A DNA stretch of 64,000 nucleotides from Natranaerobius thermophilus JW/NM-WN-LF. Lineage in GTDB: Bacteria; Bacillota; Natranaerobiia; Natranaerobiales; Natranaerobiaceae. The translations under genes and the position numbers were made by a program. Below, one piece after another: positions 48,897 to 49,373 of this stretch. The notes beneath the pieces were generated by a model. That model was not told the origin of the DNA, did no database searches, and worked only from the letters and a program-made list of their open reading frames with translations. Numbering within the stretch: the first letter of the stretch is position 1; each line of letters opens with the position of its first letter. The stretch lies in contig NC_010718.1 in NCBI RefSeq assembly GCF_000020005.1, positions 1,369,001 through 1,433,000 of the forward strand. The letters are read 5' to 3'.

Positions 48897-48936
48897 GAAA
48901 AGAAGGAATTATCGAAAAGCATATTGAATTATAGAC

Positions 48937-48966
48937 TTGGATAAAGCTAGGGTTAAGTACTATAAT
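48937..48966 (+). promoter_or_regulatory. Promoter for yloU-fakA
   Basis: TTGGAT at 48937-48942, 18 bases, and a perfect TATAAT at 48961-48966. Transcription would start only a few bases before the Shine-Dalgarno sequence at 48978, giving a very short leader made mostly of the hairpin. Confidence 0.6.
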
Positions 48967-48977
48967 ATCCTTATAAA

Positions 48978-49013
48978 AAGGAGGTGAATCCTGGCGTATA
49001 AGCCAGGTTTAAT
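48978..49013 (+). promoter_or_regulatory. Split ribosome binding site: SD, hairpin, start codon of yloU
   Basis: A full-strength AAGGAGGTGA at 48978-48987 lies 26 bases before the yloU ATG. Between them CCTGGC (48990-48995) and GCCAGG (49002-49007) form a stem around GTATAA. If the stem is folded, the remaining spacing is two plus six bases, the normal value. An in-frame TAA at 48999 excludes an earlier start. Confidence 0.75.
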
Positions 49014-49373
49014 ATGAAAGGAAATATCTTTGAAACGCAATATGGCCAAATTTCGTTATCCGAACAAGTAATTGCCACTATAGCAGGGATTTCAGCTATT
49101 GAATGTTACGGATTAGTAGGGATGGCTTCTCGCAGGTTAAAAGACGGTATAAATGAAATTCTAAGAAAAGAAGATTTAAGCAAAGGTGTTGAGATTAAAG
49201 TTTCAGAAGACAAGCTGGTCATTGAACTATATATCATCGTCAGTTATGGTACTAAAATATCCGTAGTAGCCCATAATGTTATGGAAAAAGTAAAATACAC
49301 TGTGGAATATTATACTGGACTGGAAGTTGAGGAAGTAAATATCAATGTACAGGGTGTAAGGGTTCAGGAGTAA
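49014..49373 (+). CDS. yloU: Asp23/Gls24 family envelope stress protein YloU
   Basis: Small protein of 119 residues; Asp23 relatives attach to the membrane and respond to wall or alkaline stress. GQISLSEQVIATIAGISAIECYGLVGM, KVSEDKLVIELYIIVSYG and VNINVQGVRV are the family pattern. ATG 49014 is the only usable start and its Shine-Dalgarno sequence is displaced by a hairpin. fakA follows after 14 bases, the usual pair. Confidence 0.94.
   Translation: MKGNIFETQYGQISLSEQVIATIAGISAIECYGLVGMASRRLKDGINEILRKEDLSKGVEIKVSEDKLVIELYIIVSYGTKISVVAHNVMEKVKYTVEYYTGLEVEEVNINVQGVRVQE

Follow-up and report, generated by a model that had tools for sequence, protein, structure and literature searches.

A hairpin in the yloU leader probably bridges a split ribosome binding site, an architecture that appears to recur before other chromosomal genes of Bacillota

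Introduction

The yloU gene (Asp23/DUF322 family, 119 aa) occupies positions 49014–49373 on the plus strand of the window, the 64,000-nucleotide stretch of DNA analysed here (G000:C2:1369001-1433000, from a genome of 3.19 Mb in three contigs), and its reading frame opens with an ATG at 49014. The extended Shine-Dalgarno (SD) sequence AAGGAGGTGA lies on the same strand at 48978–48987, 26 nt from this ATG, which raises the question of how a ribosome could use the two together. To our knowledge, and in the open-access papers covered by our search, hairpins that bridge an SD and a start codon are known mainly from two genes of phage T4. Here we ask whether the yloU leader contains such a hairpin, and whether the same arrangement stands before other genes.

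Results

Anatomy of the yloU leader

The space between the SD and the start codon is occupied by a predicted bridging hairpin, the 5' arm of which (CCTGGC, 48990–48995) is complementary to the 3' arm (GCCAGG, 49002–49007) across a loop of sequence GTATAA (48996–49001), as seen in the sequence itself and, for the arms, in folding and comparison. Folding and comparison also indicate that the link TTTAAT (49008–49013), which connects the hairpin with the start codon, is single-stranded. Outside the 18-nt hairpin 8 nt remain (2+6), so that the original prediction, namely an SD 26 bases before the ATG with a six-base-pair stem filling the excess, is exact to the base. Measured from GGAGG, the linear spacing is 29 nt and the residual spacing 11 nt, the latter lying inside the spread of ordinary genes, the SD spacing of which peaks at 7–9 nt with a tail to 13 nt in samples of G000, the window genome, and G002, a relative.

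The hairpin loop includes a TAA (48999–49001) in frame with the yloU ATG, and thus no in-frame start is possible further upstream, as had also been predicted. The claim that no other SD lies near the ATG holds as well, since the only candidate at ordinary spacing is a 3-nt AGG and nothing there is better than the upstream SD. The leader therefore combines a strong distant SD with the lack of a properly spaced SD and of any other usable start. The predicted sigma-A promoter is located where it had been placed, at 48937–48966 on the plus strand (TTGGAT 48937–48942, an 18-bp spacer and TATAAT 48961–48966), scoring 10/12 in a consensus scan that placed it one base away; the predicted transcription start at approximately 48973 would yield a leader of approximately 40 nt. 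Downstream, yloU and yloV form a conserved operon.

We also note a block, AAAGAAGGAATTA (approximately 48898–48912), in the region that separates the divergent promoters of rpmB and yloU. The block is identical in all three genomes available for the class although its surroundings have diverged, and its position is immediately upstream of the –35 box predicted for rpmB (48896, minus strand).

Conservation of the leader in relatives

A search with the yloU protein identified orthologues in 60 of 61 genomes and at 80 further loci. The class is represented by three genomes from three genera and two families (G000, G001 and G002), in all of which AAAGGAGGTG of the SD is identical and the order of SD, hairpin and ATG is retained, with loop, stem and length varying and the pairing preserved. 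The leader of G001 reads GGAGGTGAAT-CCTGG-CACTGT-CCAGG-TTTAATATG and that of G002 reads GGAGGTGG-AGCCCGGT-TATTT-ACC(A)GGGCT-AATAATG. The loops of G000, G001 and G002 comprise 6, 6 and 5 nt, respectively, the stems differ in sequence and register, and the linear spacings from GGAGG are 29, 27 and 29 nt; between G000 and G001 the linear spacing differs (29 versus 27 nt), with a residual of 11 nt in both.

In G002, numbered by the columns of alignment A1, a change of T16 to C breaks one (U-A) pair, and changes of T13 to G, T32 to G and T33 to C let the pairing slip by one base, with an A bulged out. The shifted register creates new G-C pairs and retains a helix of 8 bp, and the loop-closing pair is exchanged from C-G to U-A. 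Both the SD and the ATG side are conserved in this genome, whose sequence immediately before them can hardly be aligned. Thus, G001 and G002 keep a long spacing together with a compensating stem, and the proposal that the hairpin brings a distant SD into reach is supported by the very comparison through which relatives could have refuted it. RNAalifold returned no helpful covariation term for the three yloU leaders, three sequences being too few alone. We consider conservation across the three class genomes, above the stability of any single spacer, to be the main evidence that the yloU arrangement is more than chance.

The same comparison bears on whether the inverted repeat acts instead as a DNA operator or a transcription terminator. 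The yloU repeat is a perfect 6 bp and was flagged by a terminator scan; however, the bulged A leaves the G002 arms asymmetric as DNA, the arm sequences vary between genes, and relatives have no T run after the stem (AATAATG in G002, GAAAACTATG in trxA), such that we find this reading scarcely credible.

Further from the class, the bridged arrangement disappears. Among 100 distinct yloU leaders, an SD match of 9–10 nt more than 20 nt from the start is present in three, those of the class genomes, whereas 78 have an SD at 5–13 nt, most commonly 7 nt, and none of the approximately 97 other Bacillota yloU leaders displays the order SD, hairpin, ATG. The distribution therefore suggests that the yloU case originated in, or survived only in, the class of G000–G002.

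Predicted folding and stability

The 29-nt spacer of yloU has a predicted folding energy of –13.0 kcal/mol compared with a mean of –3.6 kcal/mol for its dinucleotide shuffles, none of which (0 of 5000) folds as well, and it is the most stable among the listed matches to AAGGAGG N20-34 ATG (99 of the 152 in the genome). Taken alone, the G001 spacer stands out less (201 of 5000 shuffles) and that of G002 intermediate (89 of 5000). At 53 °C the yloU stem is predicted to be folded with a probability of 0.91, with the SD region and start codon mostly unpaired, and the stem is predicted still to be folded at 65–70 °C; the G001 stem reaches only a moderate probability (0.68 at 53 °C). Over 37–70 °C, the predicted unpaired fractions are 0.64–0.84 for the SD region and 0.68–0.85 for the start codon. 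The predictions further include a weak UGAA/UUUA extension of the yloU stem, in competition with the SD at its 3' end.

A conserved hairpin in a 5' untranslated region could control yloU translation, either as a regulatory site bound by a protein or small RNA or as an RNA thermometer, and an alternative fold of the leader involving the SD is indeed predicted at 25 °C. Against this stand the folded stem and mostly unpaired SD region at 53 °C, the functionally unrelated genes that carry the hairpin (see below), the loop sequences, which are not conserved, and Rfam, which contains no matching family: neither the yloU leader nor those of 30 loci gave a match above the gathering score, and the T-box and TPP matches fall elsewhere in their loci. 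Thermal folding of the yloU leader revealed no helix that contains the SD or start codon and melts near the growth temperature. We regard a regulatory role of this kind as very unlikely. The suggestion that initiation at yloU responds to temperature or salt likewise finds no support, since the folding predictions keep the stem closed at the probable growth temperature and leave the SD core outside it. Nor does yloU appear to be the envelope-stress gene that had been supposed, as its B. subtilis homologue is constitutively and strongly expressed and can be deleted without effect (PMC5437119).

Recurrence before other genes

A covariance model of the three yloU leaders (R1), searched against 249 genomes of the phylum, matched the three yloU sites and, at E-values of approximately 0.01, the leaders of clpB (in two genomes), trxA and an NHL-repeat gene, all with the same anatomy. 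Orthologous clpB leaders from the family of these clpB matches (f12), collected by protein rather than by model, include four with an SD and differing stems (CCGGATG/CGTCCGG, CCTGGAT/GTCCGGG, CCCCGG/CCGGGG and CCCGGGTGA/TCGTCCGGG), as well as three, from members of one genus, with an ordinary SD. A further model (R2), based on nine leaders, gave, at a cut-off of E≤0.01, 33 matches in 29 of 398 genomes versus approximately 4 expected, an expectation that is nominal given rough E-values and common real SDs. Twenty of the 22 new R2 matches inspected place an SD, a hairpin and a start before a real gene; two matches in G260 and the second match in L246 stand outside the inspected set. With names read from the translations, the genes include trxA, argS (two genera), leuS, spoIIAB, remA (three families), murA, polA, a 4Fe-4S ferredoxin and others. 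These loci indicate that the architecture probably recurs before many unrelated chromosomal genes across Bacillota.

Within another family (f16), matches occur in 26 of 54 genomes. Of 24 loci inspected there for the first time, 20, drawn from many genera, are remA, spoIIAB or ferredoxin leaders in which SD, hairpin and start follow one another. Examples from this family are L227 and L289–L293 for ferredoxin, L287–L288 and L298–L306 for remA, and L225, L247 and L308–L309 for spoIIAB. Most of the best 30 remA loci phylum-wide have ordinary SDs, and the bridged remA leaders therefore look like lineage-specific gains. Candidates rejected on inspection, for having no hairpin or an ordinary start, were L211, L234, L238, L248, L249, L294, L300, L304 and L307.

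Two loci carry long hairpins. One of 57 nt precedes a 3-hydroxyacyl-CoA dehydrogenase gene (L226 in G358; linear spacing 70 nt, residual 13 nt) and one of 45 nt precedes polA (L235 in G320; linear spacing 58 nt, residual 13 nt). A second R2 match lies near the first in the same locus of G058 (L246, 1990–2046, minus strand).

Within the class itself, the best of the weaker R1 matches is a 64-aa membrane-protein gene of G002 (L114/L172; G002:C1:1015053-1015100, minus strand), in which SD, hairpin and ATG span 32 nt linearly with 13 nt residual, and the others (L115–L131) were dismissed as chance. In G000, the orthologue of this gene (L173) carries an SD at the ordinary distance of 7 nt, consistent with either a recent gain of the hairpin in G002 or its loss in G000. 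When approximately 12% of each of two genomes was scanned in sampled stretches for further cases, the matches beyond yloU and this 64-aa gene comprised one derived from a tRNA, the rest being apparently spurious frames or alternative ordinary starts.

Pairing, spacing and a broken-arm control

The independent gene families display more covariation than the yloU leaders, for which covariation of the stem in relatives had been proposed as a check. MAFFT alignments of the non-yloU families misplace the stem arms, and pairs were therefore counted on model-fitted alignments, a count that is biased both by the fit to the covariance model and by the relatedness of genomes within a family. On this basis, the ferredoxin leaders exhibit both-sided changes in five of six pairs with 96.3% of cells paired, falling to 17–52% on sliding, and the remA leaders in three of six pairs (94.0% paired). 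For 51 leaders pooled, all six pairs have changed on both sides, with 95.3% paired versus 74.1% on shuffling.

Across 53 leaders the linear distance from SD to start ranges from 22 to 70 nt (s.d. 8.4), whereas the residual spacing outside the helix averages 10.7 nt (s.d. 2.2) and lies within 9–14 nt in 46, a constancy that, like the CCNGG foot of the stem, is partly selected for because the models include the SD, the flank lengths and the ATG. With GG at the end of most hairpins, a partial SD of 2–4 nt remains near the start codon. It is conceivable that the true SD of yloU is the weak AGG at 49005–49007, 6 nt from the ATG and sequestered where the 3' arm of the hairpin ends, with the upstream consensus SD acting as a standby site, particularly as a 3' arm ending in GG is common to many other leaders. 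This GG foot is, however, partly imposed by the covariance model, and some ferredoxin leaders retain the architecture without it (CCAGT). In addition, the upstream SD is a match of 9–10 nt, far stronger than standby binding needs, and the near-constant residual spacing argues against a hidden AGG, which makes a standby role very unlikely.

The other start that the upstream SD could serve is a near-cognate CUG at 48991, located 6 nt after GGAGG, from which eight codons would be read to a UGA (49015–49017) overlapping the yloU AUG (AUGA), coupling yloU to a leader peptide. Non-AUG starts with extended SDs do exist in Firmicutes (PMC13009471), and a CTG lies 4–12 nt after GGAGG in 25 of 44 leaders. 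Yet the frames of these codons relative to the start are nearly random (13, 9 and 8), most remA, spoIIAB, clpB and argS leaders have no CTG at the optimal distance, and the codon is not conserved even in yloU, being in the yloU frame in G001 and replaced by CCG in G002. No conserved near-cognate start or frame at ordinary spacing, as would mark a leader peptide, was found over the 44 leaders, and the element that is kept is the hairpin and not the CUG codon; we therefore judge initiation at the CUG to be highly improbable.

As a control, the 3' arms were reversed so as to retain composition with arms that are non-complementary (R3). The eight non-yloU matches of R3 include one true argS case and one ftsA leader, the latter matched by R1 as well, and none of the six inspected has an SD, hairpin and start in order. 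Because the broken-arm control yields 8 matches and the real three-leader model 5, match counts alone prove nothing, and it is the identity of the matched loci that carries the evidence.

Discussion

Sequence comparison establishes the anatomy of the yloU leader, its conservation, the compensatory changes in its stem, the near-constant residual spacing and the lack of a conserved alternative start. Very probably, the leader is a split ribosome binding site of the kind found at T4 genes 25 and 38, with a hairpin bridging its two parts. We suggest that the 30S subunit would pair with the extended SD AAGGAGGUGA via the 3' end of the 16S rRNA while the 18-nt stem-loop remains folded, such that the start codon would effectively be 8 rather than 26 nt away from the extended SD, and 11 rather than 29 nt away from GGAGG. 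The hairpin would thus be a structural spacer required for normal initiation and not a switch. From selection on the pairing, together with the T4 precedent, we infer that the helix stays folded on the ribosome and that translation would fall if it were broken.

What is new here is the proposed chromosomal occurrence, in the yloU-yloV operon, and the apparent recurrence before many unrelated genes; our search of the open-access literature found no description of chromosomal hairpin-bridged start sites. The same device has probably arisen repeatedly before other Bacillota chromosomal genes. On balance, we favour the broader view that hairpin-bridged split sites constitute a phylum-wide and repeatedly evolved class of Bacillota starts, spanning dozens of chromosomal gene families, kept within lineages and missing in sister lineages, with a preferred CCNGG foot and a near-constant residual spacing, in which the hairpin may do more than be tolerated, by tuning or protecting initiation.

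If true, start-site prediction would change, as a predictor based on spacing would count such genes among those without an SD, and dozens of natural variants would become available for measuring what the 30S accepts between the SD and the P site. The three genes of family f16 with bridged starts across many genera form a natural series for the requirements on spacing and stem. Covarying chromosomal cases would matter in a Bacillota lineage that relies strongly on SD pairing, and why the lineage keeps a hairpin where eight plain bases would suffice would become directly testable.

Comparison with known systems

Like yloU, Staphylococcus aureus has extended SD motifs with long SD pairing and a preferred spacing wider than in E. 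coli (PMC13009471), although a search of that report by term returned no hairpin between SD and start. The split ribosome binding site of E. coli thrS shows a further likeness, in that a folded hairpin is reported to find room within the region bound by the ribosome, but the thrS leader is multi-domain and its hairpins are modelled as standby-site modules (PMC3936740).

The closest counterparts are found in phage T4, where destabilising the structure lowered initiation at genes 25 and 38 (PMC3014915). Gene 38, the parallel drawn in the original prediction, is of the same kind, with a long SD-AUG distance shortened by a hairpin from 22 to 5 nt, yet it is a phage gene with a shorter residual spacing than yloU, and the closest T4 match is gene 25, where a hairpin reduces 27 nt to 11 (PMC3014915). 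The split initiation region of gene 25 (Nivinskas 1999; Malys and Nivinskas 2009, as reviewed in PMC3014915) belongs to a phage gene at an intercistronic junction, in contrast to the chromosomal yloU with its own predicted promoter, and its function was shown by reporters and DMS probing, whereas that of the yloU leader is proposed from comparison. The two leaders nevertheless share a suboptimally long SD spacing and an intervening hairpin that is kept in close relatives and missing in distant ones (PMC3014915).
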